Assembly (NCBI RefSeq): GCF_009765825.1
Contig: NZ_LMUR01000018.1
Location: 1,023,704-1,087,703 of the forward strand
DNA: 64,000 bases
From: Granulicella sp. L60
Lineage (GTDB): Bacteria; Acidobacteriota; Terriglobia; Terriglobales; Acidobacteriaceae
Direction of reading: 5' to 3'
The notes beneath the pieces were generated by a model. It searched no databases. It was not told where the DNA came from and worked only from the letters and a program-made list of their open reading frames with translations. Made by a program: the position numbers and the translations under genes. Of the stretch, positions 4,312 through 49,377 are shown piece by piece. The first letter of the stretch is position 1. Each line of letters starts with the position of its first letter.

Positions 4312-4376
4312 GCGACCAACGGGAGCCGCACCCGAAGGGTATATAAATCACGAAGTGATCGCCGTCCGGGCAGGGC
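4312..4376 (+). repeat. REP-like repeat family R1, copy A
   Basis: Begins GCGACCAACGGGAGCC, continues with ACCCGAAGGGT (mini-hairpin ACCC/GGGT around GAA) and then AAATCACGAAGTGATCGCC (hairpin ATCAC/GTGAT around GAA). It fills the cobM-cobK gap. Other copies lie at 5139-5200 (inverted), 5216-5299 and 49301-49377 (inverted). Confidence 0.85.
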
Positions 4377-4394
4377 ATATCTTTCTATAAAACC

Positions 4395-5135
4395 ATGACC
4401 AAACGCATCCTCATCCTCGGAGGCACAAGCGACGCTCTCGAACTAGCCAACCACCTCTCCACGAACGAGCGCTTCCGCCTGATCTACTCCCTCGCCGGTC
4501 GAGTCGAACACCCACGCGTACCCAATCAGAGTTGCGAGATCAGAAAAGGAGGATTCGGCGGCATCGACGGCCTCGCCTCCTATCTCACCACCCATCGCAT
4601 CCAAGCCATCATCGACGCAACCCACCCCTTCGCCGCACAGATCACCCGCCACGCCGAAGTCGCCTCGCAAACCACCGGCATCCCCCTCCTTATCTACGCA
4701 AGACCACCATGGACCTCTCTCCCGCAGGACCGATGGCACGAAGTACCCAACCTCCAACACGCCGCCGCCCTCATCCCATCCCTGGGCAGACGAGTCTTCC
4801 TCGCCATAGGCCGACAGGAGGTCTCCGTCTTTGCTTACTGCACGGATGCACACTTCCTCATTCGCTCCATCGAACCACCCACCGGCCCTCTACCCCCCGA
4901 CGCCAACATCCTTCTCGCCCGCGGCCCCTTCTATCTTGACGACGAACTCACCCTTCTTCGCGACCACGCCATCGATGTGATCGTCACAAAGAACAGCGGA
5001 GGCCCCGCCACCTATCCCAAAGTAGAAGCCGCCAGAGAGATGCAGATCCCCGTCATCATGGTGCAGCGCCCACCCGCGACCTCCGCCCGGCCTGTCACCA
5101 CGATCCCCGCCGTAGAAGAGTGGCTTAAAAGCTAA
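4395..5135 (+). CDS. cobK: Precorrin-6A/cobalt-precorrin-6A reductase (CobK/CbiJ)
   Basis: NAD(P)H-dependent reductase of the corrin macrocycle. The 246-residue product starts with ILILGGTSDALELANHL, the Rossmann-type dinucleotide site of the CobK/CbiJ family, and contains IIDATHPFAAQITRHAEVA and VTKNSGGPATYPKVEAAREM, which are family hallmarks. Length is typical. It is the last gene of the corrin run and is separated from cobM by repeat R1 copy A, so it may still be cotranscribed. Its 3' end faces the EF-G2 gene across an inverted pair of R1 elements. Confidence 0.94.
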   Translation: MTKRILILGGTSDALELANHLSTNERFRLIYSLAGRVEHPRVPNQSCEIRKGGFGGIDGLASYLTTHRIQAIIDATHPFAAQITRHAEVASQTTGIPLLIYARPPWTSLPQDRWHEVPNLQHAAALIPSLGRRVFLAIGRQEVSVFAYCTDAHFLIRSIEPPTGPLPPDANILLARGPFYLDDELTLLRDHAIDVIVTKNSGGPATYPKVEAAREMQIPVIMVQRPPATSARPVTTIPAVEEWLKS

Positions 5136-5138
5136 ACG

Positions 5139-5200
5139 CCTGCGCGGCGAGCGATCACTTCGTGATTTACATGCCGCGTCGCGTAGTCCTCCCGTTGGTC
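5139..5200 (-). repeat. REP-like repeat family R1, copy B (inverted)
   Basis: Reverse-orientation copy containing GATCACTTCGTGATTT and CTCCCGTTGGTC, separated by 15 bases from the direct copy C. B and C form a head-to-head pair between the convergent cobK and EF-G2 genes, like the paired (BIME-type) arrangement of REP elements. The centre of copy B is more degenerate than in A, C and D. Confidence 0.75.
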
Positions 5201-5215
5201 AGCACAAAGATAGAA

Positions 5216-5299
5216 GCGACCAACGGGAGCCGCACCCGAAGGCGTATATAAATCACGAAGTGATCGCCCGCCCGCGCAGGGCGACCGGCCGTCAGGCCC
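5216..5299 (+). repeat. REP-like repeat family R1, copy C
   Basis: GCGACCAACGGGAGCC, then ACCCGAAGGCGT, then AAATCACGAAGTGATCGCC, and a GC-rich end GCCCGCGCAGGGCGACCGG that is also found, inverted, in the copy at 49301-49377. It ends just before the EF-G2 stop codon and could serve as a two-way transcript end. Confidence 0.85.
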
Positions 5300-5304
5300 T
5301 ATCT

Positions 5305-7446
5305 CTATTCCTCATCCAAATCATGCACCGGCTGCTTCGCCGAAGCCAAAATCTTCTCCGTCAACATCGGCGGCACCAAATCATAGTGCCCCATCTCCAT
5401 CCTGAAGCTCCCCCGCCCCTGCGTCATCGACGTCAGGGTCGTGCTGTAGCTCAACATCTCAGCCATCGGCACCTCCGCACGCACCATCGTCCCCGCGCCT
5501 CCGCTCTCCATCCCCAGCACCCTCCCACGCCGTCCCGTGAGGTCCCCAATCAGCGCCCCCGCAAACTCATCCGGAGCCTCCACATCAACGCGCATTACCG
5601 GCTCCAATAACGCGGGCCTCGCCTGCTCCATGCACTTCCGAAATGCCAGCCGCGCCGCCATCTTGAACGACATCTCACTCGAGTCCACCTCGTGAAAACT
5701 GCCGTCGAACACCGTCACCTTGATATCGACCACCGGAAAACCTGCCAGAAATCCACGCGCCGCACACTCATGCACACCCTTCTCCACTGCAGGCACATAC
5801 TGCCGCGGAATCGCACCGCCAAAGATATCGTTGGCAAACACCACCCCACTCCCGCGCGGCAGCGGCTCAATGCGCAGCCTGCAATCGCCGAACTGCCCAT
5901 GCCCCCCGGTCTGCTTCTTATGTTTCCCCTGCGCCTCCGCTCGCGCCCGAATCGTCTCCCGATACGGAACCTTCGGCGCTCGCAGGATCACATCCGTGTG
6001 ATACCGCCGCTTCAACTTCGACACCGTCGATTCAATATGCAATTGCCCCGCCCCCGCCACCAGAAACTCGCTCGTCTGCGGATCGCGAAAGAAGCGCAGC
6101 ATCGGATCGTCTTCCATCAATTTGTGCAGCGCAGGCGCAAGCTTATCCTCATCCGCTCTCGACCTCGGTTCAATCGCATACGTCATCGCCGGCTCCGGCA
6201 TCACCGCCGGCTCCAGAAAGATCTCATGCGCCTTGTCCCCCAGCGTGTCCCCAGTCAGCGTCACCCGCAGCTTCGCCACCGCCCCCAGATCGCCCGCATG
6301 CAACTCCTGCACCTCCACCGCTTTTCGCCCCTGCATGATGCACAGATGCGCCAGCCGCTCCGGCTCATGACGCGTAAAGTTCTGCACCACCGTATCCGTC
6401 TTCATGGACCCTCCCACCACCTTGAAGAACGAGATCTTCCCTGTAAACGGATCCGTCATCGTCTTGTACACATACAGCGCCAGCGGCTCGCCATCCTCCA
6501 CCCGCCGCATCACAATCTCCTCCTGCCCCACATCATGAAGAACACCATTTCCTTGCATCATCGCTCGCGCCGCCAAAGGCTCTCGCTCCGTCGGAGCAGG
6601 CGCATACACTTTCAGAAAGTCCAGCAGATGATCCGTCCCCACATTCTTCAGTCCGCTCGCATACAGCACCGGAAAGATCCGATCCTCCCGAATCGCCTCA
6701 TGCAGCGCCGTCACCAGATGAGCCTCGGGAATTGTTCCGTCCCGGAAGAACTCCTCCATCAACTCATCCTTCCCCTCCGCCACCAGCTCCACCAAAGCCT
6801 CGTGCGCCTCCTTCGCATCCGCCATCACCGTCGCCGGAATCTTCCCCACCTCCCCATGCCCATCCCCATCCGGCTTATATAAAAACGCGTTCATCGTCAC
6901 CAGATCCACCACCCCATGAAACCCAAGCTCATCCACAATCGGAAGCTGCACCGGCACTACCTGCCGCCCCCACCGCTCCTGCATCAGCTCGATCATCCTC
7001 CTCCGACCCAGCCTGCTATCCGCCTTCGCATGATCTACCTGGTTCACCACCAACACCCGCGGCAACCCCACCTCAGCCGCATAGTTCCACACCCTGTCCG
7101 TCACCGCCTCAGCGCCAATCTGCGCATTCACCACCACCAGCGCCGCCTCCACCGGCAGCATCGCCGCCCTCGCCTCATGCAGAAACATATGAAACCCCGG
7201 CGTATCCACTAGGTTGATCTTCACCCCGCTCCACTCCGCAAACGCCACCGCGTTACACATCGTTGTCCTGCGCGCCACCTCCTCCTCGTCATAAGCGGTC
7301 ACTGCCGAACCATCCTCCACCCGCCCTCGCGCAGGCGTCATCTTCGCCGCGTGCAGCAGCGCCGAAATCAATGTCGTCTTCCCGCTATGCGCCTGACCCA
7401 CCACCGCAACATTGCGGACATCGCTTCCCATATAGGTCTTCATCAT
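5305..7446 (-). CDS. EF-G-like translational GTPase, EF-G2 type
   Basis: A 713-residue paralogue of elongation factor G. Start chosen at 7446 (or the adjacent ATG 7443) because AGGAG sits a few bases upstream and homology begins there; the frame continues open to 7617. G1 is GQAHSGKTTL, G4 is NQVD, and the later domains II-V are present (GHGQFGDCRLRIEPL in domain IV, DLTGRRGRVLGME in domain V). G3 is DTPGF, where canonical EF-G has DTPGH: the histidine that supports GTP hydrolysis is replaced. Members of the EF-G2 class commonly diverge here. The gene stands alone, divergent from receptor 1 and convergent with cobK. Ribosomal role is inferred; a tetracycline-protection role is less likely on this sequence. 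Confidence 0.85.
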   Translation of the reverse strand: MMKTYMGSDVRNVAVVGQAHSGKTTLISALLHAAKMTPARGRVEDGSAVTAYDEEEVARRTTMCNAVAFAEWSGVKINLVDTPGFHMFLHEARAAMLPVEAALVVVNAQIGAEAVTDRVWNYAAEVGLPRVLVVNQVDHAKADSRLGRRRMIELMQERWGRQVVPVQLPIVDELGFHGVVDLVTMNAFLYKPDGDGHGEVGKIPATVMADAKEAHEALVELVAEGKDELMEEFFRDGTIPEAHLVTALHEAIREDRIFPVLYASGLKNVGTDHLLDFLKVYAPAPTEREPLAARAMMQGNGVLHDVGQEEIVMRRVEDGEPLALYVYKTMTDPFTGKISFFKVVGGSMKTDTVVQNFTRHEPERLAHLCIMQGRKAVEVQELHAGDLGAVAKLRVTLTGDTLGDKAHEIFLEPAVMPEPAMTYAIEPRSRADEDKLAPALHKLMEDDPMLRFFRDPQTSEFLVAGAGQLHIESTVSKLKRRYHTDVILRAPKVPYRETIRARAEAQGKHKKQTGGHGQFGDCRLRIEPLPRGSGVVFANDIFGGAIPRQYVPAVEKGVHECAARGFLAGFPVVDIKVTVFDGSFHEVDSSEMSFKMAARLAFRKCMEQARPALLEPVMRVDVEAPDEFAGALIGDLTGRRGRVLGMESGGAGTMVRAEVPMAEMLSYSTTLTSMTQGRGSFRMEMGHYDLVPPMLTEKILASAKQPVHDLDEE

Positions 7447-7462
7447 CAGCTCCTCTTTCCAC

Positions 7463-7478
7463 CTCGGCACGTACCGAG
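7463..7478. promoter_or_regulatory. Near-palindrome upstream of the EF-G2 gene
   Basis: CTCGGCACGTACCGAG is an inverted repeat with a single mismatched pair, located 17 bases before the EF-G2 start. It could be an operator or a leader hairpin; no partner regulator is identified. Confidence 0.25.
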
Positions 7479-7997
7479 ATGACAGCGAACTATTAGTGCC
7501 TATAGCTGTTACGAATAGAAATCCGTGGGAATGCAGTGCGTCATCCGACCGCCCCATTCCTCTGCCATACCCTCGCGCATCGCAGCGACGGAGGCATCCA
7601 CATTCGAAGCGCATCAAAGGCGCTCGCCCGGGAAAGCACGGATGCTACCACAAACAACCCAGACTTTTCGCCCCACTCTCCCGGCCATCTTGCACAAACC
7701 GAACCCCGCATCGACACGCAACCGCAGTCCCACCCGCACATAACCAAATCCCCCAGGGCATCACGTTCACGCCCCGAGGCATCAAAGTGTATTAGAGCAA
7801 TAGAGCTATCTCTCGCGGAGGTCACGAGAATCCGGGATGCTGCGAGCATCACCAATACGCGCACTGCCAAGTCCGCGCTGCAAAACCGCCTGAATCAAAT
7901 TCGTCGCCCGACGATCTCCCCACAGGCCGATCCACAAGTGTACGAACGATCAAACGCAAAGCCCTCATCGTCCCTGCTTCGAAAGGATCCTCCCAGC
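7479..7997. other. Divergent intergenic region
   Basis: About 520 bases between the start of the EF-G2 gene (minus) and receptor 1 (plus). Open frames cross it, but their translations are rich in Arg/Pro/Ser, lack a ribosome site and look like composition artefacts. It presumably holds the two outward promoters; I could not identify convincing -35/-10 pairs. Confidence 0.5.
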
Positions 7998-10900
7998 ATG
8001 ATGCCCCTCCCCAAGGCTCCCTCTCCCCGCCCCGCCCATCTACTCAAAATCGCCCTCGCCTACACCCTCTGCTCCGCCTCCGCCTTCGCCCAGTTCCGCG
8101 CCTCCATCCAGGGCACCGTCACCGACCCCACCGGTGCCGTCATCCCCGGTGCCACCCTCACGCTCACCGACACCGACACCAACCACGTCATTACCGCAAC
8201 CTCCAACACCAGCGGCGTCTATAACTTCAACGCCCTCCCCACCGACCACTTCACCCTCACCGCCGATGCCAAGGGCTTCAAGTCCAACAAGATTCAAGGC
8301 GTCCGCATCATCCCCGACCAGCCCAACGCCGTCAACATCCAGCTTGAGATCGGCGACACCTCCACCACCGTCACCGTCAACGGTGACCAGGTCTCCGCGC
8401 TCGAAACCGAGACCGCCACCACCAGCGGCGTCGTCGACAGCAACCAGATCCAGCACCTCCCCTCCGCCGGTCGTGACGTCTTCCAGCTCGCGCAACTTGC
8501 ACCCGGCGTCTTCGGCGACGGCTCGCAGGGCGCCGCCGGTGGTACGCAGAACCTCCCCGGCACCAGCGGCCCTGGAGGCAGCACCAACAGCTCTGGAATC
8601 TTCCAGACAGAAAACGGTCCCCAGGTCGTCTCCAACGGCTCGCAGAACTCGACCAACGGCATTAGTATCGACGGCATCAGCACCGTCAGCGCCGTATGGG
8701 GCGGAACCTCCGTCATCACGCCTACGGAAGACTCCGTCGGCAGCGTCAAGATCGTCTCCAACTCCTACGACGCAGAGGACGGCCGCTTCACCGGCTCTCA
8801 AATTCAAGTCACATCCAAGAGCGGCACCAACGACTGGCACGGCAGCCTCTTCTTCCGCGCCAACCGCCCTGGCCTCAACGCCTACCAGCGCTACAACAGC
8901 AGCGGTTTCTTCAACACCGGCACACCCGCTGAGCGTGGTCTCACCCGCGACACCCAGCAGTTCAACCAGTACGGCGGCAGCGTCGGCGGTCCCATCTGGA
9001 AGAACAAGGTCTTTGCCTTCTTCGCCTACGAGACCATTCGTAACAACTCCTCCATCACCGCCACCGGCTGGTACGACACCCCCGCCTTCGACGCCCTCGC
9101 GCCCGCTAACAGCATCGCATCCACCTACCTCACCTTCCCTGGCGCAGGCGTCGCCTCTGCCGGTCTCATCAATCAGAACTGCGCCAGCATCGGTCTCCAG
9201 GAGGACGTCAACTGCCACGCCATCGCAGGTCAGGGCCTCAACCTCGGCTCGCCCATCACCACCGGCCTCGGTAAACAGGACCTCACCTGGAAGAGCGCCA
9301 CCAACCCCGGCGTAGGGGGCGGTCTCGCGAACGTAGCCGACATCGCCAACTACACCACCGTCAATCCAACTTCGATCACCGAAGCCCAGTACAACGGACG
9401 CCTGGACTCCGATGTCACCAAAAAGGACCACGCAGCCTTCGCCATCTATTGGGTGCCGGTCAGTACCACCGACTACAACGGCGCCGTGCGTCCCTACAAT
9501 CTCTACCACCACATCGGGATCAACGACGCCTTCTCCGTCATCTGGAATCACATCTTCTCCCCCACTCTCCTAAACGAGGCTCGCGCCAACGCCGCCGGCT
9601 ATCGTTGGAATGAAGTCCTCAGCAATCCGCAGGAGCCCTTCGGCCTGCCCACAGCCACCGTCGATACCTTCGGCACCCTCAACGGCGGTTCACCGGCCTC
9701 CACGTACTACGCCTTCGGAGCACCCGGCCCCAGCAACCTCAACCAGTGGACCTATAGCTACAAGGACGTCGCCACCAAAATCTCCGGCAATCACACCATC
9801 AAGTTCGGCGGCGAGGTCACCCGGCTCTACTACCTCAACAACCAAACTGCCTCAGCCCGGCCCAGCTACAACTTCTACAACATCTGGGACTTCCTCAACG
9901 ACGCCCCGCACACCGAGGCTGGCACCTTCAACCCCCTCACCGGCACCCCCACCACCAACCGCCAGGACAACCGCGAGAACATCTACGGCTTCTTCGCCCA
10001 GGACGACTGGAAGGCTCTTCCCAACCTGACCTTTAACTTCGGTCTCCGCTACTCCTACTTTGGTTCTCTCACCTCCAAGCAGAACAACCTCAGCACCGTC
10101 GTCCTCGGCTCAGGCGCCAGTGCCTTCACCGGCCTCACCATGCGTCGCGGCGGTAGCGTCTGGAGTCCGCAGAAGGGTAACTTCGGCCCCCAGTTCGGCT
10201 TCAACTACAGCCCGCCGCACCTCAATAACCGCGTCGTCATCCGTGGCGGCTACGGACTCAACTACAACCAGGAGGAGATCGCGATCGCCTCCAGCGGAAC
10301 CAATAATCCTCCCGCCATCGTCAACGCCAGCTTCAGCAGTGGAAGCCCTACCAGCATCAACCCCGCCATCGTCTACGCCATCGCGTCCGATCCGCACTCG
10401 CTCCTCGGCTACCCCGCCAACCAGAACGCCATCACTGCCTTCAACAGCGCAAATCTGCCCGTCTCCGGAGGCATCGGCGTCACTGCATTCCCGGCAAATC
10501 TTCCCACCGCCTACACCCAGCACTTCACGCTCGATACCCAGTACGACCTCGGCCATCAGTTCGTCGCGAACGTCGGTTATCAAGGCAGCGTCACCCATCA
10601 CACCATCATCCAGTCCAACGCCTACGTCACCGCCGTGGCCCAGGGGCTGCCCCTCAACCCGCTCATCAACCAGGTAGACTTCTACGGCAACAACGGTGGC
10701 GCGAACAACAACGCCTTTTTGGTCGGGCTAAAGCACGACATGTCCCATCACTTCCAGGCCGAAGCGCAGTTCCAATGGGCCAAGTCCATGGACGACGCCT
10801 CTTCTCCCTTCTACGAAGACCCCTACCCCTACGCCCCGCAGTACGCCCGCGGACGTTCGGACTATAACGTAGGCAAGGCCCTTAAAATCTTCGGCCTCTG

Positions 10901-11495
10901 GCAGCCCGTCATCTTCCACGGAAGCCACGGCTGGGTCGAGAAGGTCGTCGGAGGCTGGTCCGTCAGCGGCATCTTCAACCTTCACTCTGGCTTCCCTTGG
11001 TATCCCGTCGTCAATGTGACAGGCGGCAACCTTTACTATCCCAACAGCGGCTACACCCAGCTCCGTCCCGCCTCCTATAACGGCGGCGCAGGCCACGACA
11101 CCAGCAACGACGCCTTCAAATCCGGCCCCGGCGTAGGTAGCGGCCAGAACAAGAACTTCCCCCTCGCCGGCCCCAACCAGCCCTACTTTACCCTCCCGGC
11201 CTACACCATCGGCTCAGGCATTCCCCAGGCCCCAGGCGTAGCCCGAAACTCCTTAGACGGACCCGGCTACCGCGACGTCGACGCCACCATCACCAAGGCC
11301 TTCGGTCTTCCGAAGCTGCCCATACTTGGCGAAGACGCCAAATTCGAAATCCGCGCCGACGCCTTCAACCTCTTCAACCTTCTTAACTTCAATCCCACCA
11401 GCATCGCCAACGACGTCTCCTCCACTAACTTCGGCCAGGCCCAAAGCGCCCTAGGCGGCCGCGTCATCAACCTCCAAGCCCGCTTCAGTTTCTAG
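7998..11495 (+). CDS. TonB-dependent receptor with carboxypeptidase-regulatory-like domain (receptor 1)
   Basis: Large outer-membrane protein of the acidobacterial CarboxypepD_reg/TonB type, 1165 residues. The start at 7998 follows AAGGA (7982-7986) and gives a clear signal peptide ending about residue 32 (CSASAFAQ). Residues ~36-115 form an Ig-like regulatory domain (IQGTVTDPTGAVIPGATLTL and NTSGVYNFNALPTDHFTL), then a plug-like part (IQHLPSAGRDVFQLAQLAPG), then a long beta-barrel ending in a terminal Phe (INLQARFSF). Substrate unknown; such proteins in Acidobacteria are usually assigned to polysaccharide or peptide uptake. It is monocistronic, and its codons strongly favour C at third positions, unlike receptor 2. 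Confidence 0.9.
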   Translation: MMPLPKAPSPRPAHLLKIALAYTLCSASAFAQFRASIQGTVTDPTGAVIPGATLTLTDTDTNHVITATSNTSGVYNFNALPTDHFTLTADAKGFKSNKIQGVRIIPDQPNAVNIQLEIGDTSTTVTVNGDQVSALETETATTSGVVDSNQIQHLPSAGRDVFQLAQLAPGVFGDGSQGAAGGTQNLPGTSGPGGSTNSSGIFQTENGPQVVSNGSQNSTNGISIDGISTVSAVWGGTSVITPTEDSVGSVKIVSNSYDAEDGRFTGSQIQVTSKSGTNDWHGSLFFRANRPGLNAYQRYNSSGFFNTGTPAERGLTRDTQQFNQYGGSVGGPIWKNKVFAFFAYETIRNNSSITATGWYDTPAFDALAPANSIASTYLTFPGAGVASAGLINQNCASIGLQEDVNCHAIAGQGLNLGSPITTGLGKQDLTWKSATNPGVGGGLANVADIANYTTVNPTSITEAQYNGRLDSDVTKKDHAAFAIYWVPVSTTDYNGAVRPYNLYHHIGINDAFSVIWNHIFSPTLLNEARANAAGYRWNEVLSNPQEPFGLPTATVDTFGTLNGGSPASTYYAFGAPGPSNLNQWTYSYKDVATKISGNHTIKFGGEVTRLYYLNNQTASARPSYNFYNIWDFLNDAPHTEAGTFNPLTGTPTTNRQDNRENIYGFFAQDDWKALPNLTFNFGLRYSYFGSLTSKQNNLSTVVLGSGASAFTGLTMRRGGSVWSPQKGNFGPQFGFNYSPPHLNNRVVIRGGYGLNYNQEEIAIASSGTNNPPAIVNASFSSGSPTSINPAIVYAIASDPHSLLGYPANQNAITAFNSANLPVSGGIGVTAFPANLPTAYTQHFTLDTQYDLGHQFVANVGYQGSVTHHTIIQSNAYVTAVAQGLPLNPLINQVDFYGNNGGANNNAFLVGLKHDMSHHFQAEAQFQWAKSMDDASSPFYEDPYPYAPQYARGRSDYNVGKALKIFGLWQPVIFHGSHGWVEKVVGGWSVSGIFNLHSGFPWYPVVNVTGGNLYYPNSGYTQLRPASYNGGAGHDTSNDAFKSGPGVGSGQNKNFPLAGPNQPYFTLPAYTIGSGIPQAPGVARNSLDGPGYRDVDATITKAFGLPKLPILGEDAKFEIRADAFNLFNLLNFNPTSIANDVSSTNFGQAQSALGGRVINLQARFSF

Positions 11496-11540
11496 GGGCA
11501 TCAATACTTTTCTGAAATAGATCACCTTTCCTGTGCACAA

Positions 11541-11555
11541 GGCAGAAAAACTGCC
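11541..11555 (+). terminator. Short hairpin after receptor 1
   Basis: GGCAG-AAAAA-CTGCC followed by TTCATT, 45 bases after the receptor stop. The stem is only five base pairs and the T-run is weak, so it is a tentative terminator. Confidence 0.3.
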
Positions 11556-11557
11556 TT

Positions 11558-11612
11558 CATTCTGAGCGAAGCGAAGAACCCTATACTTTTTCTCGAAGTG
11601 CTTTGCTCTCCA
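11558..11612 (-). repeat. Dispersed repeat family R2, copy A (inverted)
   Basis: On the minus strand it reads GGGTTCTTCGCTTCGCTCAG followed by AATG, preceded by an A-rich stretch and a GGAGAGCAAAGCACTTCGAGA segment resembling the upstream part of the other copies (12301-12354, 59101-59169). It lies between convergent receptor 1 and rlmH. Confidence 0.75.
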
Positions 11613-11665
11613 CCATGGGAGAACAATACTTCTAAGACGCGCTGTCAACCTCCCATTGGTTGGGT

Positions 11666-12121: not shown

Positions 12122-12432
12122 CGGCTCTGTAGTTTGGCTCGTCGACGCTTAGTTTCGCTATGGGAAATCGATTTGCTCACGCTTCGTGCGTCGGCAGCGG
12201 ACGAGAAGGCCCCCAGGGGCCAAAGCCCAGATCTGGCGAGAGAGACCCAAGGCTAAAGCCATGGGTCCTTGAAGCTAGAGTATCTTCCTCAATAATGTAG
12301 AGCGAGGCGCTTTGAGAAAAACACAGGGGTTCTTCGCTTTGCTCAGAATGACGATAATTTCTACTTTAGAACAACAGCTAAAATTCTCTAGAAGCCTTAA
12401 AGCTTGAGGCTACCGGTGCGATTTGAGAAGAT
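12122..12432. other. Intergenic spacer rlmH-rsfS
   Basis: About 310 bases without a gene. The part nearest rsfS holds repeat R2 copy B (12301-12354). Nothing else recognisable was seen. Confidence 0.6.
12301..12354 (+). repeat. Dispersed repeat family R2, copy B
   Basis: Contains AGCGAGGCGCTTTGAGAAAA, then ACACAGGGGTTCTTCGC and TTTGCTCAGAATGACGA. Closely similar to 59101-59169 and, inverted, to 11558-11612. Confidence 0.8.
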
Positions 12433-13056: not shown

Positions 13057-13155
13057 GAGACTCCTTGGAGTTCCATGGTAGCGGGTTGTGCGGCTGGAAG
13101 CCAGCTTATGTGTGGCGCAGGTAGGACGCAATCTGGAAAATACTGGCGCGCTCGG

Positions 13156-15303: not shown

Positions 15304-15344
15304 GGGATATTGTCTCGCATGGCTTCCGATGCGATAGCGTGCAT

Positions 15345-39390: not shown

Positions 39391-39410
39391 CGGGTGGTGC
39401 GGGAGAGTCT

Positions 39411-40934: not shown

Positions 40935-40939
40935 TTTAT

Positions 40940-43900
40940 TTACTCCGCTCCGGCGGCTACGGTGCCGTCCGTGGGATGAAAGGTGTCGCGGGTCTGTCCC
41001 ATCGCGCGCAGGCGCAGGCGGTCGAGCGTGAGATAGACGACGGGGGTGGTGTAGAGGGTGAGGAGCTGGCTGACGATGAGTCCTCCGACGATGGTGATGC
41101 CGAGCGGACGGCGAAGCTCAGAGCCGGTGCCGGTGCCGAACGCCAGCGGAAGCGCGCCGAAGAGGGCTGCCATGGTGGTCATCAGGATGGGACGGAAGCG
41201 CAGGAGGCAGGCCTGGAAGATGGCGTCCTCTGTGCTGAGGCCTCCTTCGCGCTCTGCCTGGAGGGCGAAGTCGATCATCATGATGGCGTTCTTCTTCACG
41301 ATACCGATGAGGAGCACGATACCGATGATGGAGATGATGTTGAGGTCTTCTTTGAAGAGCATGAGCGCGAGCATGGCGCCTACGCTGGCGGAGGGAAGCG
41401 TGGAGAGGATTGTAAGCGGGTGAATGAGGCTCTCATACAGGACGCCGAGGACGATGTAGACCGCGAGCAGTGCGGTGAGGATGAGGACGGGCTCGGTGCC
41501 TAAGGACTGCTGGTAGGCGAGGAGCGTTCCGGCAAAGAAGCCGTGGACGGACTTGGGGGTGCCAAGGCGCTGCTGCATCTCGGCGATCTCAAGCGTTGCA
41601 TCGCTGAGCGAGACGCCGGGCGCGAGGTTGAAGGAGACGGTGACCGAGGGAAAGAGGCCGGTGTGGTTGAGCGCGAGAGGGGTGGTGCTGGTCTGGGCCT
41701 TCGCCATGGTGAAGAGCGGCGTGTTTCCGCTTGCCGTGGTGCTGCTGGCGCTGGTGGAGTGGAAGTAGATGTCCTTGAGGCCCTCGGGAGTTTGCCAGTA
41801 GGGGGGAGCGACCTCGAGTACGACGTAGTACTGATTAAGTTGGGTGTAGATGATCGAGACTAAAGACTGGCCGAAGGCGCTGTAGAGTGCGGAGTCGAGC
41901 GACTGTGAGGTCTGGCCCAGCTTTGCCGCTGTGACGCGGTCGTAGGTGAGGCGCTCGTCGAGGCCGCCGTTCTGCTGGTCGGAGCTGACGTCCTGGAAAC
42001 CGGGAAGACGCATCATCTCGGCGAGCAGGCGCGGTCCCCACAGGGAGAGGTCGGTGACGTTGTCGGCCTGAATCGTGTACTGATAGAGCGCGTTGCTGGA
42101 GCGGCCGCCGATGCGGAGGTCCTGCGAGGCCTGGAGGAAGGTGGATGCGAGCGGGAGGCGGTTGAACTGTGGCCGAAGGCGGTTGATCACGTCGGCCGCT
42201 CCGATCTTGCGCACGTCCAGCGGCTTCAAGGTCACATACATATTGCCGGTATTGGTGGCACCCTGACCGCCGGTGAAGTCAATTACATTTTCTACCGCTG
42301 GATCCTTCTTGACGATGTTGGCGATGACCTGGAGGTCGCTGTTCATCTTGTAGTACGAGGCGTCCTGCGGTCCGCGGACAGCGCCAGCGAGCGAACCGGT
42401 GTCCTGCTGCGGAAAGAAGCCTTTAGGAATCTTGATGACGATGGCGACGTTGAGCAGGATAGTGAGGAAGAGGACCGTGAGGGTGAGGCCGGGGTGCTGC
42501 AGGACCCAGTGCAGACTGCGTCGATAAACGGAGAGGATCCACTCGAAGAAGCCATCGGTGATACGGCGGAAGGGGCCTTGCTTCTTGCCGTGCTCGCTGC
42601 GAAGAAGGTAGGCGCACATCATCGGCGTCGTGGTGAGCGAGATGACCATGGAGACGAGAATGGCGGTGGAAAGGGTGATGGCAAACTCGCGGAAGAGGCG
42701 GCCGACGATTCCACCCATGAGAAGAAGCGGGATGAAGACGGCGATGAGCGAGATGCTGATGGAGATGACGGTAAAGCCGATCTCCTTTGCGCCTCGGAGG
42801 GCGGCGGGAAAGGGCTTCATCCCGTCTTCCAGATGGCGGGTGATGTTCTCCATGACGACGATGGCGTCGTCGACGACGAAGCCGGTGGAGATGGTGAGGG
42901 CCATGAGCGACAGGTTGTCGAGGCTGTAGCCCATGAGGTACATGACGGCGAAGGTGCCGATGAGCGAGACGGGGACTGCGACGGCGGGAATCAGCGTGGC
43001 ACGGCCGCTCCCGAGGAAGACGAAGACGACGATGATGACGAGGATGATGGAGATGATGAGGGTTCGCTCTACATCGCTCACTGACGCCTTGATGGTCGTG
43101 GTGCGATCGAGGACGACGGTCATGTCGATTCCCTGCGGGATGGATGCCTTGATGGAGGGCAGCTGCGCACGGATGCGATTGTTGGTGTCGATGATGTTGG
43201 CGCCGGGTTGTCGAAAGACGATCAACATGACGGCGCGCTTGCCGTTGAGATATCCGGAGGTGCGAACGTTTTGCGTGGAGTCGACGACGTCTGCGACGTC
43301 TGAGAGACGAACGGCCGAACCGTTGTTATAGCCGATGATGATCGGCTTGTACTCTTCGGCGTGGGATATCTGCGCGTTATCGATGATGTCTGCGGAGATA
43401 TCGCCGTTGGTGATCTGGCCCTTGGCGAGGTTGGAGTTCTGCAGGCTCAGGACGGACTGCACGTTCGACATGGCGAGGCCGTAGCCTGCGAGCTTGGTTG
43501 GGTTGACCTCGACACGGACGGAAGGCAGAGCGCCGCCGCCGGGGTTCACCTGGCCTACGCCCTGAATCTGAGAGAGCTTCTGCTGGACGATGGTGGACGC
43601 TTCGTCGTACAGCTTGTCGGGGCCGTACTTGTCGGAGGTGAGGCCGATGATCATGACGGGCGCGTCGGCGGGGTTCACCTTTCTGTAGGTCGGGTTTCCG
43701 GGAAGATTGGCCGGGAGATAGGTGCGGGCGGCGTTGATGGCGGCTTCGACGTCGCGCGCTGCGGCATCGATGTTGCGGCTGAGGTCGAACTGGATGGTGA
43801 CAGAGGTGGTGCCGAGACTGCTTGTCGACGTCATCTCGGTGACGCCGGCGATGTGGCCGAACTGGCGTTCGAGTGGCGTGGCAACGGAGGAGGCCATGAT

Positions 43901-44071
43901 CTCGGCGCTGCCTCCGGGGAGACTGGCGCCAACGGAGATGGTGGGAAAATCAACCTGCGGAAGCGGAGAGACGGGCAGAACCGTAAACGCGATGCCGCCG
44001 GCGATGGCGATGGCGATGGTGAGCAGCGTCGTCGCTACGGGGCGATGAATAAATGGTGCGGAGATATTCAT
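40940..44071 (-). CDS. mdtC: RND efflux permease, MdtC-like
   Basis: 1043-residue inner-membrane proton-driven permease (AcrB superfamily). Begins NISAPFIHRPVATTLLTIAI; motif regions include LPVSPLPQVDFPTI, VATPLERQFGHIAGVTEMTS, and GFVVDDAIVVMENITRHLED with the proton-relay aspartates in TM4. Second RND gene of the operon, overlapping mdtB by ATGA (44068-44071). Two non-identical RND subunits encoded in tandem are the hallmark of the MdtABC type. A short Ser/Thr-rich loop (FHSTSASSTTASGNTPL) occurs where mdtB has a far longer one. Confidence 0.94.
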   Translation of the reverse strand: MNISAPFIHRPVATTLLTIAIAIAGGIAFTVLPVSPLPQVDFPTISVGASLPGGSAEIMASSVATPLERQFGHIAGVTEMTSTSSLGTTSVTIQFDLSRNIDAAARDVEAAINAARTYLPANLPGNPTYRKVNPADAPVMIIGLTSDKYGPDKLYDEASTIVQQKLSQIQGVGQVNPGGGALPSVRVEVNPTKLAGYGLAMSNVQSVLSLQNSNLAKGQITNGDISADIIDNAQISHAEEYKPIIIGYNNGSAVRLSDVADVVDSTQNVRTSGYLNGKRAVMLIVFRQPGANIIDTNNRIRAQLPSIKASIPQGIDMTVVLDRTTTIKASVSDVERTLIISIILVIIVVFVFLGSGRATLIPAVAVPVSLIGTFAVMYLMGYSLDNLSLMALTISTGFVVDDAIVVMENITRHLEDGMKPFPAALRGAKEIGFTVISISISLIAVFIPLLLMGGIVGRLFREFAITLSTAILVSMVISLTTTPMMCAYLLRSEHGKKQGPFRRITDGFFEWILSVYRRSLHWVLQHPGLTLTVLFLTILLNVAIVIKIPKGFFPQQDTGSLAGAVRGPQDASYYKMNSDLQVIANIVKKDPAVENVIDFTGGQGATNTGNMYVTLKPLDVRKIGAADVINRLRPQFNRLPLASTFLQASQDLRIGGRSSNALYQYTIQADNVTDLSLWGPRLLAEMMRLPGFQDVSSDQQNGGLDERLTYDRVTAAKLGQTSQSLDSALYSAFGQSLVSIIYTQLNQYYVVLEVAPPYWQTPEGLKDIYFHSTSASSTTASGNTPLFTMAKAQTSTTPLALNHTGLFPSVTVSFNLAPGVSLSDATLEIAEMQQRLGTPKSVHGFFAGTLLAYQQSLGTEPVLILTALLAVYIVLGVLYESLIHPLTILSTLPSASVGAMLALMLFKEDLNIISIIGIVLLIGIVKKNAIMMIDFALQAEREGGLSTEDAIFQACLLRFRPILMTTMAALFGALPLAFGTGTGSELRRPLGITIVGGLIVSQLLTLYTTPVVYLTLDRLRLRAMGQTRDTFHPTDGTVAAGAE

Positions 44072-47000
44072 GACTGCCCTGCCGGTTCCCCTTCAGCTTC
44101 CTCGTGTGCGTCCTTCTTTTTTGAAAACCGGTGTCCGAGGTTGTCGAAGAAGATATAGATGACGGGGGTGGTGTAGAGGGTAAGGATCTGGCTGAGGAGA
44201 AGACCGCCGACCATGGCGATGCCGAGCGGCCTGCGCAGCTCGGAGCCGATGCCGTGTCCGAAGGCGAGTGGAAGACCGCCGAGGAGCGCGGCCATCGTGG
44301 TCATCATGATGGGACGGAAGCGGAGCAGACAGGCCTCGTAGATGGCTTCGGCGGCGGTCTTGCCGTGATGGCGCTCCGCCTCCAGGGCGAAGTCCACCAT
44401 CATGATGCCGTTCTTCTTCACGATACCGATCAATAGGACGAGTCCGATGATGGCGACCACGCTTAGATCTTGGTGGAAGAGGATGAGCGAGAGGAACGCG
44501 CCTACTCCGGCGGATGGGAGGGTGGAGAGAATGGTGATGGGGTGGATGAAGCTCTCGTAGAGGACGCCGAGCACGATGTAGACGGTGACGAGCGCGGCGA
44601 GAATGAGAAGCGGCATGTTGGAGAGCGAGTTACGGAACGATGCCGCTGTTCCCTGGAAGTCAGCCTGCAGACTCGCAGGCATGTTCATGTCTTTCTGAAC
44701 CTTGGTGATATCGGTGATGGCACCACCGAGAGCGGCGTTCGGGCCCAGGTTGAAGGAGACGGTGATGGCGGGAAACTGTCCCTGGTGGGTGATGGAGAGT
44801 GCTTCAGTGGTCGTCTCGAAGTGTGAGAAGGCGCTGAGTGGAACGGCGCTGCTGTAGGCCGAACTGGTGGTTCCTGCCGACGTCGCGCCTTTGCTCGAGG
44901 TCGCGTTCGAGGTGCTGGAGGTCAGCGCGTTGACTGGAGGAGAGAGGGTGTTCGCCGATGGATTGAAGAGCGGTGAGGTGGTGAGGGCGTTCGATCCGGC
45001 CGAGCTCGATCCCTGAGAGGCAGAAGAGGTTGCCGCACCGGCACCGGTCGTGCCGGCGGAGGAGTTCGACTGCACGTAGAGGTGGTTCAGCTTGTCGGGA
45101 TCGATCTGAAACTGCGGCTGGGCTTCGAGGATGACGTGGTACTGGTTGAGCTGCGTGTACATCGTGTTGATCTGGCGCTGGCCGAAGGCATCGTAGAGGG
45201 TGTTGTCGATGGTGGTGGGCGTGATGCCGAGGCGGGATGCGGTGGCGCGGTCGATGACGAGAGAGACTGCGAGACCGCCGACCTGTTGATCGGTGGCTAC
45301 GTCTTCGAGGCCAGGCAGCTGCTTCAGGCGGGTGACGAAGCGGCCGGTCCATTCGTTGAGTTCGTTCTGGTCAGGATCTTCGAGGGTGTACTGGTATTGC
45401 GTCCGGCTCACGCGGTCGTCGACGGTGATGTTCTGCACCGGCTGCATGAAGAGCTGGATGTCTTTGATGTCTTTCAATTTGGATTGAAGCCTGCGCACCA
45501 CGTCGGAGGCGCTGAGGTCGCGCTGATCGAGAGGCTTCAGGTTGATCGACATTCTTCCGCTGTTGGTGGTGACATTGGTTCCGTCTGCGCCGATGAACGA
45601 CGAGAGACTTTCCACTGCGGGGTCCTGAAGGATGACCTTTGCGAGCTCCTGCTGCTTCTCTGCCATGGCCTTGGAGCCGATGGTCTGCGAGGCTTGCGAG
45701 ATACCTTGAATGACGCCCGTATCCTGCACGGGGAAGAATCCCTTGGGGATGATGACGTAGAGGTAGACCGTGAGCATCAGGGTGGCAAGGGCGACGAGGA
45801 GGGTGATGGTCTGGTAGCGGAGCACGACCTTGAGCGTGCGACCGTAGAAGGCGATCATTCCTTCGAAGACGCGTTCGGACGCCTGGTAGAAGCGTCCCTG
45901 CTGGGCTTCGGGATTGTGCTTCAGGATGCGCGACGCCATCATCGGGGTAAGAGTGAGCGAGACGACCGCCGATACCACGATGGTTACGGCGAGGGTTACG
46001 GCAAACTCGCGGAAGAGGCGGCCAACGACGTCGCCCATGAAGAGTAGGGGAATCAGCACGGCGATGAGCGAGACGGTGAGCGAGAGGATGGTGAAACCGA
46101 TCTGCTCTGCGCCTTTGAGGGCCGCCTGCATGGGGGGCTCGCCCTCTTCGAGGTAACGCGAGATGTTCTCGACCATCACGATGGCGTCATCGACCACGAA
46201 GCCGGTCGAGATGGTCAGCGCCATGAGCGAGAGATTGTCCAGACTGTAGCCGAGCGCGTACATGGCCGCAAAGGTGCCGACCAAGGACAGTGGAACCGCA
46301 ACGCTGGGGATGATAGTCGCGTAGAGGTTTCGCAGGAAGAGGAAGATGACCATGACCACGAGGCCGATGGTGAGGAGGAGCTCGAACTCGACGTCGCTGA
46401 CCGAGGCCTGAATTGGCGTGGTGAGGTCGGTGAGGGTGGTGATCTCGATGCCTTTGGGAAGGTTGGCCTCAAGCTGCGGGAGCAGTTGCTTGATGCTCTT
46501 GACGACGGTGATGGTATTTCCGCCGGGCTGGCGCTGGACGTTGAGGATCACCGCCGGCGTCATGTTCATCCACGCGGCCTGGGTACTGTTTTCGACGCCA
46601 TCGACGATGTGAGCGACGTCAGTGAGCATGACGGGTGCGCCGTTGCGGTAGGCGACGACGACGCTTCGGTAGTCCTGACTTGTGACCAGCTGGTCGTTCG
46701 CGTCGATCTGATAGTCCTGGCGCGGGCCGTCGAAGTTTCCCTTCGCCTGGTTCACGCTGGCTTCGGAGACCGCCGTGCGCAGGTCTTCGAGATTGATGCC
46801 GTAGGAGGAGAGTGCGGTTGGGTTCGCCTGGATGCGCACCGCGGGCTTCTGGCCTCCGCTGATGCTGACCAGTCCAACGCCGCTTAGCTGCGAGATCTTG
46901 GGGGCGAGGCGCGTGTCTACGAGGTCTTCCACCTGCGACAACGGGACGGTGGTTGAGGTGATGGCGAGGGTGAGCACGGGCGCGTCGGCTGGGTTGGTCT

Positions 47001-47391
47001 TGCTGTAGATCGGCGGCGCGGGGAGGTTGGCGGGGAGGAAGCTCTGCGATGCGTTGATCGCCGACTGAACTTCTTCTTCCGCGATGTCGATGTTGAGGGC
47101 GAGATTGAACTGGAGCACAACGACGGAGGTGCCGCCGGAGCTGGTCGAGGTCATCTGATTCAGACCCTGCAGCTCGCCGAACTGACGCTCGAGCGGGGCT
47201 GTGACCGTAGTCGCCATGACCTGCGGGCTTGCGCCGGGGTAGAACGTCAGGACCTGGATGGTCGGGTAGTCGACCTCAGGAAGCGCGGAGACAGGCAGCT
47301 GGGTGTAGCTGACAATGCCGACGAGCAGGATGGCAGCCATGAGCAACGACGTCGCAACGGGGCGAAGAATAAACGGACGCGAAGGACTCAA
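44068..47391 (-). CDS. mdtB: RND efflux permease, MdtB-like, with Ser/Thr/Ala-rich insertion
   Basis: 1107 residues, partner of the MdtC-like permease. N-terminus RPFILRPVATSLLMAAILLV, porter motif VTAPLERQFGELQGLNQMTS, TM4 GFVVDDAIVMVENISRYLEE with aspartates. About 60 residues longer than the ~1040 norm because of a low-complexity insertion at residues ~774-854 (SAGTTGAGAATSSASQGSSS and more), placed in the second periplasmic porter region. Overlaps mdtA and mdtC by 4 bases each, so all subunits are translationally coupled. Confidence 0.94.
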   Translation of the reverse strand: MSPSRPFILRPVATSLLMAAILLVGIVSYTQLPVSALPEVDYPTIQVLTFYPGASPQVMATTVTAPLERQFGELQGLNQMTSTSSGGTSVVVLQFNLALNIDIAEEEVQSAINASQSFLPANLPAPPIYSKTNPADAPVLTLAITSTTVPLSQVEDLVDTRLAPKISQLSGVGLVSISGGQKPAVRIQANPTALSSYGINLEDLRTAVSEASVNQAKGNFDGPRQDYQIDANDQLVTSQDYRSVVVAYRNGAPVMLTDVAHIVDGVENSTQAAWMNMTPAVILNVQRQPGGNTITVVKSIKQLLPQLEANLPKGIEITTLTDLTTPIQASVSDVEFELLLTIGLVVMVIFLFLRNLYATIIPSVAVPLSLVGTFAAMYALGYSLDNLSLMALTISTGFVVDDAIVMVENISRYLEEGEPPMQAALKGAEQIGFTILSLTVSLIAVLIPLLFMGDVVGRLFREFAVTLAVTIVVSAVVSLTLTPMMASRILKHNPEAQQGRFYQASERVFEGMIAFYGRTLKVVLRYQTITLLVALATLMLTVYLYVIIPKGFFPVQDTGVIQGISQASQTIGSKAMAEKQQELAKVILQDPAVESLSSFIGADGTNVTTNSGRMSINLKPLDQRDLSASDVVRRLQSKLKDIKDIQLFMQPVQNITVDDRVSRTQYQYTLEDPDQNELNEWTGRFVTRLKQLPGLEDVATDQQVGGLAVSLVIDRATASRLGITPTTIDNTLYDAFGQRQINTMYTQLNQYHVILEAQPQFQIDPDKLNHLYVQSNSSAGTTGAGAATSSASQGSSSAGSNALTTSPLFNPSANTLSPPVNALTSSTSNATSSKGATSAGTTSSAYSSAVPLSAFSHFETTTEALSITHQGQFPAITVSFNLGPNAALGGAITDITKVQKDMNMPASLQADFQGTAASFRNSLSNMPLLILAALVTVYIVLGVLYESFIHPITILSTLPSAGVGAFLSLILFHQDLSVVAIIGLVLLIGIVKKNGIMMVDFALEAERHHGKTAAEAIYEACLLRFRPIMMTTMAALLGGLPLAFGHGIGSELRRPLGIAMVGGLLLSQILTLYTTPVIYIFFDNLGHRFSKKKDAHEEAEGEPAGQS

Positions 47392-48632
47392 GGAGCATTA
47401 CTCCCACTTGGGTTGGCTGGGATGGGGGTCTTGGAGACGGTGATCTTGGATTTGTCCTGCAGCCGGTCGAAGCTGCTGTCGGCAAGGACATCGCCGGGAT
47501 TGACTCCGGTGACGGCCGAGTTGTCGCCTTCGGTCACGCTTGTCTTCACCGACCGCATGTGGGCGACGTTGTCCTGAATAACGTAGACGAATGACGCTGT
47601 GCCGTTGTGCTGGACCGCGGAGGTTGGAATCAGGGTCGCGTTCTGCAAGGTGTTGACGAGCAGGCGCGCATTCACAAACTCGTTCGGGAAGAGCATGGAG
47701 TCCTTGTTGTCGAACTGGGCTCGAGCCTTCACGGTGCCGGTGGTGGTGTCGATCTGATTATCCAACGTCAACAGGGTTCCGGTCGCGATCTGCTTGAGTG
47801 CGGCGCGGTCGTATGCGTCGACGGGAAGCTTCGCGTGTTGGCGCAGACGCGGCTGCACCTGGCTAAGGTTATCTTCGGGAATGGTGAAGATGACGGTAAT
47901 GGGCTGAAGCTGAGTGATGACGGCGAGGGTCGTGGTTCCGGTGGACTGGACGACGTTGCCGGGATCGACCAGACGCAGGCCGACGCGACCCGAGATGGGC
48001 GCTGTGATGTGGCAGTAGCTGAGCTGGACCTGATCGAGCTGGACGGTGCCCTGATCATTCCTGACGGTGCCCTCATCCTGCAGCACCACCTTCTCCTGGT
48101 CATCGAGGGTCTGCTTTGGAATGGCGTTTCTGGACCAGGCATCGCGGTAGCGTTCGACGTCCATCTTGGCCTGAGCCAGAACGGCTTCATCGCGCTCGAG
48201 CGATCCCTGCGCCTGCAGCAGCGTCGCCTGGTAGGGACGCGGATCGATATCGACCAGCGGATCGCCTTTGCGGACGATCTGGCCTTCGGTGAAGTGTACG
48301 GCGATGACCGGGCCGGTGGCCTGGCTAGTGATCGAGGAGGTGTACACGGGTGTGACCGTGCCGATCGAGTCCAGGTAGACGCCGATGTTGCCTTGGGTCG
48401 CGGTGGCGGTGGTGACGGCGACGGGGCCTCCGGCAGCTCCATGCCGCGGAGACGAGGCTTGCTTACTTGTATCCTCGTGATGTCTCAGGACCAGAAAAAA
48501 TGCTGCACCAAAGACAAGAAGAAGAGCAATCCACACGATGACCCGGGAAACTTTATGGGTCGGAGCAGGAGCAGGAGCCGGCAGTTGATGGTCGGCCCCA
48601 ATGATGGGGTATTTATTTGGATCGGCTGGCAA
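47388..48632 (-). CDS. mdtA: RND efflux periplasmic adaptor, MdtA-like
   Basis: 414-residue membrane-fusion protein: N-terminal anchor (VSRVIVWIALLLVFGAAFFL), lipoyl half-motifs (GNIGVYLDSIGTVTPVYTSS, GQIVRKGDPLVDIDPRPYQA), a helical hairpin (LLQAQGSLERDEAVLAQAKM) and beta-barrel (ITVIFTIPEDNLSQVQPRL). First gene of the operon. Its last ~25 residues (SKTPIPANPSGSNAP) are Pro-rich. No dedicated regulator gene is adjacent. Confidence 0.94.
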   Translation of the reverse strand: MPADPNKYPIIGADHQLPAPAPAPTHKVSRVIVWIALLLVFGAAFFLVLRHHEDTSKQASSPRHGAAGGPVAVTTATATQGNIGVYLDSIGTVTPVYTSSITSQATGPVIAVHFTEGQIVRKGDPLVDIDPRPYQATLLQAQGSLERDEAVLAQAKMDVERYRDAWSRNAIPKQTLDDQEKVVLQDEGTVRNDQGTVQLDQVQLSYCHITAPISGRVGLRLVDPGNVVQSTGTTTLAVITQLQPITVIFTIPEDNLSQVQPRLRQHAKLPVDAYDRAALKQIATGTLLTLDNQIDTTTGTVKARAQFDNKDSMLFPNEFVNARLLVNTLQNATLIPTSAVQHNGTASFVYVIQDNVAHMRSVKTSVTEGDNSAVTGVNPGDVLADSSFDRLQDKSKITVSKTPIPANPSGSNAP

Positions 48633-49013
48633 TACGTCTCCCTTGCCACAGTTGAAGTTTCGGACTGAACGCGCAGTCTGTTGCTACCTACAGCTAGTCT
48701 ATCGACGGATGCACATGTATTAAAAGACTCAGCTTCGCGACTTCCGCTGTCAAAAGATTTGTGAAATCAGCTTTCAGGGCTTCAAATCCGCAACCCGCTG
48801 ACCGCTCTGATGTTTCCTGCCTCTGTTCGATTGAGCTTGCCCTGCTCTTCATGGTATGATTACCCAATCGGCAGACTACCGTTCACTCGGTAGAGGTCTG
48901 GAGCTCGCTCTCCTTGTACCTGAGGTCTTCCCCCGGCATTGTTTGAGTTTTTCTTTCACTCAGGCTTCATCGCCCGGAGATCTTCTGCGATTCAGGATTG
49001 GAGCAACTTCGTC
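48633..49013. other. Divergent region between efflux operon and rpmB
   Basis: About 380 bases with no gene. It holds a candidate rpmB promoter (48831-48860) and a leader of about 150 bases. The efflux operon promoter must also lie here but I could not place it. Confidence 0.5.
48831..48860 (+). promoter_or_regulatory. Candidate rpmB promoter
   Basis: TTGAGC (48831-48836), 18-base spacer, TATGAT (48855-48860). The resulting leader before rpmB would be about 145 bases. Confidence 0.4.
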
Positions 49014-49202
49014 ATGGCACAAAAATGTGATCTTTGCGGCAAAGGCCCGCAGTTCGGCAACAACATCTCTCACGCCCACAACACCACCCGTCGCCGCTGG
49101 AATGTAAATCTGCGGCCGGTAAAGGCACAGGTCAACGGCGCCAGCAAGCGCATGCGTGTGTGCACCAGCTGCATCAAGACCGGCAAAATCATCAAAGGCT
49201 AA
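49014..49202 (+). CDS. rpmB: 50S ribosomal protein bL28
   Basis: 62 residues. Begins MAQKCDLCGKGPQFGNNISH and ends RVCTSCIKTGKIIKG; two CxxC pairs indicate the zinc-binding (C+) form of bL28. ATG 49014 chosen because it is the canonical N-terminus and GGAG lies about ten bases upstream. The upstream frame to 48939 is non-homologous. Monocistronic, with a good terminator 30 bases downstream. Confidence 0.96.
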   Translation: MAQKCDLCGKGPQFGNNISHAHNTTRRRWNVNLRPVKAQVNGASKRMRVCTSCIKTGKIIKG

Positions 49203-49231
49203 GCTACACCCAAGACTTTCAGAGATACGAC

Positions 49232-49264
49232 GCCCCAGCCGTTTAATAGACGGCTGGGGCTTTT
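49232..49264 (+). terminator. Rho-independent terminator of rpmB
   Basis: Stem GCCCCAGCCGT/ACGGCTGGGGC (49232-49242 and 49250-49260) followed by TTTT and a further T-rich stretch. Confidence 0.92.
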
Positions 49265-49300
49265 CCTGTTTTTCTAGTTTTGTGTGAAGGATACCCACTG

Positions 49301-49377
49301 ACGACCGGTCGCCCTGCGCGGGCGGCGATCACTTCGTGATTTGTATACCCCTTCGGGTGGGGCTCCCGTTGGTCGCT
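49301..49377 (-). repeat. REP-like repeat family R1, copy D (inverted)
   Basis: Inverted copy with GCGATCACTTCGTGATTTG, ACCCCTTCGGGTGGGG and CTCCCGTTGGTCGC, plus the same GC-rich flank (CCGGTCGCCCTGCGCGGGC) as copy C. Lies between convergent rpmB and msrB. Confidence 0.85.

Follow-up and report, generated by a model that had tools for sequence, protein, structure and literature searches.

R1, a family of head-to-head palindromic repeats with covarying foot-loop hairpins in Granulicella sp. L60 and related genomes

We analyzed a repeat, here called R1, that occurs four times in a 64,000-nt stretch of the Granulicella sp. L60 genome (the window; contig NZ_LMUR01000018.1). R1 is a high-copy, mostly intergenic family whose unit is a head-to-head pair of arms about 200 bp in length, and each arm carries a series of short hairpins whose pairing is maintained by changes on both sides of the helices. 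R1 is probably a mobile palindromic repeat that is non-autonomous and moved in trans, similar to REPINs and bacterial interspersed mosaic elements (BIMEs), and it belongs to a single acidobacterial genus, perhaps also to near relatives.

The genome that holds the window (5.9 Mb in 22 contigs) contains 213 exact copies of the hairpin core TCACGAAGTGA, compared to one for the reversed control, so the four copies of the window are not the only ones. The 16-mer GCGACCAACGGGAGCC, which the original prediction gave as the shared sequence of the family, was found 79 times in the genome with up to two mismatches, compared to nine for its reversed control. Within the window, the 16-mer at three mismatches occurs three times, a number reached by 27 of 100 shuffles and therefore not above chance, and its significance rests on the genome-wide counts. 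A covariance model of R1 was built from an alignment (A1) of 43 arms from the same genome, picked by an exact H2 core from 71 short-type arms, in which the H4 hairpin is recognizable (the hairpins H0 to H4 are described below). The model gave at least 150 matches in this genome, and the 150 listed all had E<1e-9.

The copies lie between genes far more frequently than inside them: 268 of 278 distinct units in the fetched loci were intergenic, in loci where 67% of the bases were called coding (the count excludes duplicate loci and units less than 300 bp from the end of a locus). Overlap with a gene was at most 40 bp for 96 of 100 arms of the window’s genome and exceeded 60 bp for one. For 166 of the intergenic units, the nearest called genes on the two sides were each within 400 bp; 55 of these units had convergent, 89 tandem and 22 divergent neighbors; the background gaps (n=540), taken from the same R1-bearing and partly overlapping loci, were 104 convergent, 352 tandem and 84 divergent. 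Genes were called with a simple codon-usage score and not with a published gene finder.

Read from the centre of the pair outwards, an arm begins with H0 (GCGACC-ANC-GGGAGC, with tandem G.A mismatches), followed by the variable H1 and by H2 (GTCAC-GAA-GTGAC), which is the best conserved. The next hairpin, H3 (CCCAC-GAGCA-GTGGG), has a 5’ foot CTC complementary to its loop GAG, and the last, H4 (GTCC-GGCA-GGAC), has a 5’ foot CC complementary to its loop GG; the arm ends with the tail A..ATCTTT. The stem of H3 is referred to as S2 and the crossing foot-loop helix of H3 as S1. The tandem G.A mismatches of H0 and the C(GAA)G triloops presumably resemble stable DNA mini-hairpins. In A1, the structure made of H0, H1, H2, S2, S1 and H4 was paired in 97.0% of 1028 cells, and its covariation was 0.297, compared to at most 0.045 for slid structures and a value as high in none of 500 shuffles. 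Ten pairs were altered on both sides, with at least one in each of the six helices. The invariance of H2 in A1 is built in through the selection of arms by the exact H2 core; among 98 arms in loci that were fetched by H0, the exact core was present in 78. A ranking by corrected mutual information, which assumes no structure (174 arms, 990 column pairs), placed S2.4, S2.2, S2.3, H4.2, S1.2 and H4.3 at ranks 1 to 6.

The foot-loop helix S1 was analyzed in arms with an exact H2 core and an in-register G-N-C-A loop (54 from the window’s genome and 120 from others). S1 was CTC/GAG in 36, CGC/GCG in 10 and CAC/GTG in 5 of the 54 own arms, and CGC/GCG in 107 of the 120 arms of other genomes. The types of S1 are lineage-specific compensated variants. 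The foot-loop pair of H4, in 160 arms with an intact H4 stem, was C-G in 145, A-T in 6, T-G in 3, T-A in 1 and unpaired in 5, and it ranked 11th of 990 and 6th of 3240 column pairs by mutual information. The foot-loop pairs of H3 and H4 constitute H-type pseudoknot arrangements, in which both helices may form simultaneously. A search of nine R1 loci against Rfam gave no hit over a gathering score (lowest E 0.067).

The pairing of arms is evident from the spacing of 261 arms in 136 loci, one locus from the window’s genome and the others from relatives. At least 60 of 79 neighbors in the -/+ arrangement were spaced 7-33 bp apart, the closest of 25 in the +/- arrangement were 655 bp apart, and 4 of 23 in the -/- arrangement were 12-56 bp apart. 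Full pairs spanned 180-207 bp from the outer end of one H4 to that of the other (23 cases), with centres mostly of 9-20 bp (115 centres) that are frequently AATCATC- or AAAGATCTTT-like. Of 188 arms, 33 had an exact TCTTT no more than 13 nt beyond H4. For word lengths 2 to 5, repeats flanking the ends of 23 pairs were near those of shuffled flanks, giving no sign of a target-site duplication. The own-genome loci held 41 pairs and 39 solo arms. At orthologous sites a solo corresponds to one arm of a pair elsewhere (L200 with L240 and L111; L257 with L258), and the solos at these compared sites are eroded pairs.

R1 has a patchy distribution in the genus of the window. Exact copies of TCACGAAGTGACC numbered 352, 212, 198, 188, 165, 93, 71, 68, 31 and 16 in ten of 37 genomes and 0-4 in the other 27. 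These exact-word counts understate diverged families, as in genome G021, which had none by word and 13 by model. The R1 model matched 19 of 250 genomes of the class, all from the window’s genus (1 of 94 genera), in a scan that scored the best 16 matches per genome with stricter filters than the own-genome scan. Among the matches listed in named genomes, arms were found in records of Granulicella aggregans, Granulicella sp. S190 and metagenome-assembled genomes (MAGs), and a record of Acidipila sp. EB88 contained three R1-like but weaker matches (E 8e-11 to 2e-6). Three Paraburkholderia and two IMG/VR matches to a degenerate pattern were without H3/H4 and were taken as chance, as was a Eubacteriales MAG match (L247) to the H2 core alone. 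No R1 match was obtained by blastn against phages and plasmids. Among the R1-poor genomes, an orthologous R1 pair was observed in L106 (G001), L112 (G023) and L310 (G258); in L106 it sits between terminase-like (Terminase_6C) and HipA-like genes, possibly a phage remnant.

Some arms are marked by a palindrome at a single point of H3:

R1 arms whose H3 is interrupted at one point by a ca. 36-bp palindrome (GGGGTCCCCACAAACAGGTCTTCGTTTGTGGGGTGG and variants): L043, L110, L123, L167, L176, L189, L192, L199, L204, L227, L235, L244, L248

The 13 arms share the insert at the same spot, and five of them are at separate places of one contig of TAA 166. All 13 occurrences of the insert in the 1.70 Mb of fetched loci were at this place in R1 arms. 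Most simply, a marked copy was multiplied, giving rise to a sub-lineage at several loci.

The copies of the window and the terminator-like hairpin near one of them are as follows:

4312..4384, + strand: R1 solo arm; H0 4312-4326, H1 4330-4340, H2 4347-4359, H3 region shortened, H4 absent, ATATCTTT tail at 4377-4384; model match C17:1028010-1028090
5139..5202, - strand: R1 arm, left half of a head-to-head pair; H0 5188-5202 (reverse), H1 variant ACGCGACGCGG, H2 5154-5166, H3 region, H4 not recognizable
5203..5215, no strand: centre of the head-to-head pair, CACAAAGATAGAA
5216..5306, + strand: R1 arm forming the right half of this pair; H0 5216-5230, H1, H2 5252-5264, H3 region (foot CGC, loop GCG), H4 5287-5298 (foot ACC, loop GTCA), tail TATCTCT extending to the stop codon of the EF-G-like gene; model match C17:1028914-1029010
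49232..49260, + strand: intrinsic-terminator-like hairpin 3’ of rpmB, separate from R1
49299..49376, - strand: R1 solo arm 3’ of rpmB; H0 49362-49376 (reverse), H2 49328-49340, H3, H4 degraded; model match C17:1072989-1073084

The original prediction located these copies correctly, but the elements are longer than it proposed: complete arms add two hairpins and a TCTTT-like tail, and the first and third copies end at about 4384 and 5306. The first copy has kept its tail though H4 is lost. The ATCAC-GAA-GTGAT hairpin was said to be common to all four, and exact ATCACGAAGTGAT is indeed present at 4347, 5154 (-), 5252 and 49328 (-). The 16-mer and the ACCC-GAA-GGGT mini-hairpin, also proposed for every copy, are not universal. 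The 16-mer has exact matches at 4312 (+), 5216 (+) and 49361-49376 (-), but the inverted copy at 5139-5200 has TGACCAACGGGAGGAC and just GACCAACGGGAG in common with it; this copy likewise carries ACGCGACGCGGC in place of the mini-hairpin. The arm at 5139 was not among the 150 listed covariance-model matches, and nhmmer does detect it. All four copies are intergenic as predicted: the first is between a tetrapyrrole methylase gene and cobK, the head-to-head pair (5139-5299) between the convergent cobK and elongation-factor-G-like genes, and the copy at 49301 between rpmB and a SelR/MsrB gene, following the terminator-like hairpin of rpmB as the prediction stated.

Two other features of the window were observed. 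A dispersed repeat, TCATTCTGAGCGAAGCGAAGAA with longer flanks, is located at 11557-11578 (+), 12330-12351 (-) and 59145-59166 (-), three copies compared to none in 100 shuffles. In two of these copies the repeat and its flank read CGTCATTCTGAG, and the repeat is similar to CGTC-tagged ones. Between 41016 and 46236, two stretches of 300 nt are repeated at a distance of about 3.1-3.3 kb with 75-79% identity, which suggests tandem paralogous genes.

We searched for a gene that might mobilize R1. The genome of the window harbors two Y1 (PF01797) genes similar to the REP-associated tyrosine transposases (RAYTs) that spread repetitive extragenic palindromic (REP) sequences. Neither gene has R1 within 1.5 kb, in line with the earlier statement that the window copies are not flanked by a RAYT, and R1 was absent from all 66 Y1 loci examined, contrary to the suggestion that a RAYT had spread it. 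The 66 loci, each taken with 1.5 kb of flank on both sides unless the contig ended sooner, are part of 178 matches (61 and 12 genomes) and include all 14 matches (E<=0.001) of the six R1-rich genomes having any; seven are based on matches with E>0.001 and two (L154, L388) overlap. Y1 genes (E<=0.001) were found in 6 of the 10 genomes with at least 16 exact cores, compared to 22 of the 27 with at most four. No Y1 match, even at E<=10, was obtained in the three genomes whose exact cores number 93, 165 and 352, and G080, with eight model matches, gave no Y1 match. We rejected RAYT as the R1 mobilizer on the absence of R1 from the 66 Y1 loci and of Y1 genes from these R1-rich genomes.

Palindromes of a different sequence accompany many Y1 genes. 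GGTGCCCC..GTGGG palindromes were present at 20 of the 66 Y1 loci, and a palindrome GGGTGCCCC..GTGGGC lies 91 bp upstream of the Pfam match of each own RAYT. The latter occurs 15 times in the window’s genome, compared to none for the control. We regard it as a second REP family, situated by the own RAYT genes at L031 1374 and L032 (reverse) 1368 and also beside many Y1 genes of the genus. Like R1, these are dispersed palindromes of the same genome, but they have 15 copies, two of them beside RAYT genes, and a sequence unrelated to R1.

Other candidates were equally unproductive. TnpB (PF07282) was absent from 24 genomes, while the same search was positive in 6 of 14 controls, and TnpB-linked mobilization was rejected. 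IS91-type Y2 genes were rejected as well, being present in 6 of 12 R1-rich and 2 of 12 R1-poor genomes and absent from six of the rich ones. No R1 was found at the class 1 TnpA loci seen. Among 260 predicted genes within 400 bp of R1 in relatives, no gene recurred beyond a largest similarity cluster of five (short-chain dehydrogenases), and no transposase was found in the 25 largest neighbor clusters or among genes with R1 on both sides, the family scan having covered part of the 260.

The likeness to REP and BIME elements that was originally proposed holds for the copy number, the intergenic placement, the head-to-head dimers and the palindromic units. BIMEs are bound by gyrase, IHF or Pol I. 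IS200/IS605 elements have footed hairpins at their ends and make no target duplication. R1 shares footed hairpins and the lack of target duplication with the ends and deletion derivatives of IS200/IS605, but differs in the absence of TnpB and in the class 1 TnpA loci being without R1. Most definitions of REPs rest on one stem and a GTAG or CGTC tag, plus a RAYT for the GTAG class, and REP singletons of Pseudomonas are described as dimer remnants (PMC3733652). R1 resembles REPINs and BIMEs of the GTAG type in its high copy number, intergenic location, head-to-head dimers with a short spacer and singletons that are dimer remnants. It differs in having arms of five hairpins with foot-loop pairing where a REPIN has one stem, in lacking an unpaired 5’ GT[AG]G foot in its consensus and invariant columns, and in flanking no RAYT. 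The CGTC-tagged REPs are presented as mostly head-to-head dimers without a dedicated transposase, with a single 8-9 bp stem, an unpaired CGTC tag and a CCA-like tail (PMC3733652). R1 is also mostly head-to-head, and no dedicated transposase was found for it, but it has short stems in series and the tail A..ATCTTT. By these definitions, R1 is neither a GTAG nor a CGTC REP (PMC3733652). A literature search found no published description of the R1 repeat, which does not prove that there is none.

The nearest published system, and the best published lead, is that of the class 3 TnpA_Y1 repeats, which have Acidobacteria among their hosts, several atypical secondary structures, hundreds of copies and a CnGA foot (PMC6006769). 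R1 might be a repeat of such a system (Solibacter type) whose gene was lost or missed in most of these genomes, a reading that we hold to be unlikely. The likeness, drawn by description only, lies in the acidobacterial host, in the atypical structure, in copy numbers of hundreds and in the arm starts, which are CCGA in some R1 arms, fitting CnGA, and GCGA in others, not fitting. No class 3 gene was seen with R1 in the search made with PF01797. The three R1-rich genomes without a PF01797 match at E<=10 also speak against it, with the limit that a class 3 gene could escape PF01797, and the R1 model matched no other genus among the 250 class genomes. The classical RAYT-mobilized REP/BIME of the original prediction would account for the copy number, the head-to-head dimers, the intergenic placement and the two RAYT-like genes of the genome. 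It is largely refuted and very improbable, given that none of the 66 Y1 loci carries R1 and 20 carry the other palindrome instead, that the R1 consensus has no GT[AG]G foot and that R1-rich genomes exist without Y1 genes.

It is also quite improbable that R1 is not mobile and is a host-maintained cis RNA element at transcript ends, acting as a terminator or mRNA stabilizer. The placement at gene ends (55 of 166 units convergent, compared to 104 of 540 gaps) and the conserved pairing would suit such an element, and H0 with the centre of the window’s pair, read backwards, fits a terminator pattern (2 sites, compared to 1.1 in shuffles). Against this, R1 is patchy within the genus, with at least 16 exact cores in 10 of 37 genomes and 0-4 in 27, rpmB has its own terminator-like hairpin, and solos in tandem context are weakly oriented (29 in the same and 16 in the opposite direction). 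In 37 comparisons of shared sites, moreover, the element was better conserved than its flanks in 12, equally in 4 and worse in 21. Promoter-like sites were not found in two short stretches checked. The explanation that we consider least probable is that R1 is a miniature inverted-repeat transposable element (MITE) derived from a DDE transposon and bounded by long inverted repeats. A length of about 200 bp and the inverted ends AAAGAT..ATCTTT are consistent with it, but the 23 pairs showed no target-site duplication signal, no transposase was present among the neighboring genes looked at, and compensatory changes in internal helices are unexpected for terminal repeats.

Several results weigh against R1 as a mobile repeat with the fold described here. 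No mobilizing gene was found by the above searches. Among 100 own arms (of at least 213), identity to the nearest neighbor had a median of 90% and a maximum of 96%, with no two arms reaching 98%, and orthologous R1 sites are common to different species; with shared sites and no near-identical arms, recent movement is not shown. The conservation counts against the flanks similarly indicate that the spread was not recent. Clean empty sites are few and have host sequence replaced, the global alignments of empty sites being poor and judged by eye. The marked sub-lineage could reflect repeated insertion of another palindrome into one spot. As for the fold, the 16 further pair types in A1 were not above shuffles (16.4), H1 was paired in 83.7% only, and three of the 13 proposed pairs, S2.1, S1.3 and H4.1, ranked 40, 169 and 514 of 990, partly because their columns hardly vary. 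Minimum free energy folds of single arms at most modestly beat shuffles (z -2.1, 0.3 and -0.9 as DNA; -2.1 and -1.9 as RNA). Wobbles favored the modelled strand mostly through one weak pair (62 G.T and 31 A.C; 32 and 26 without S2.1), and these counts demonstrate neither single-stranded DNA nor RNA as the folded form. At another site, a neighboring gene has its 3’ end replaced by an R1 pair and, judged by eye, seems to end inside the repeat (L302 1370-1650, compared with L303, L325 and L308).

As a mobile repeat moved in trans, R1 would have spread between genes as dimeric, foldable mirror-image pairs. The strand of an arm may fold when exposed as single-stranded DNA, and a trans-acting single-strand nuclease or transposase could recognize and move the folded strand. 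The gene of this enzyme would not be located beside R1 and may have been lost, or have escaped detection, in several R1-rich genomes, and R1 activity in the window’s genome was probably not recent. We propose only tentatively that R1 might be the first mobile palindromic repeat whose arms consist of foot-loop pseudoknotted hairpins kept by compensatory change and diversified by lineage, and that it is moved by a single-stranded DNA enzyme outside the RAYT and IS200/IS605 groups. R1 illustrates how a far richer, covarying fold can occur in a head-to-head repeat of high copy number that has no detectable partner gene. Six genomes of the genus with 93 to 352 exact cores are assembled in 3 to 22 contigs each, which makes the missing mobilizer and the role of the foot-loop pairing directly testable.

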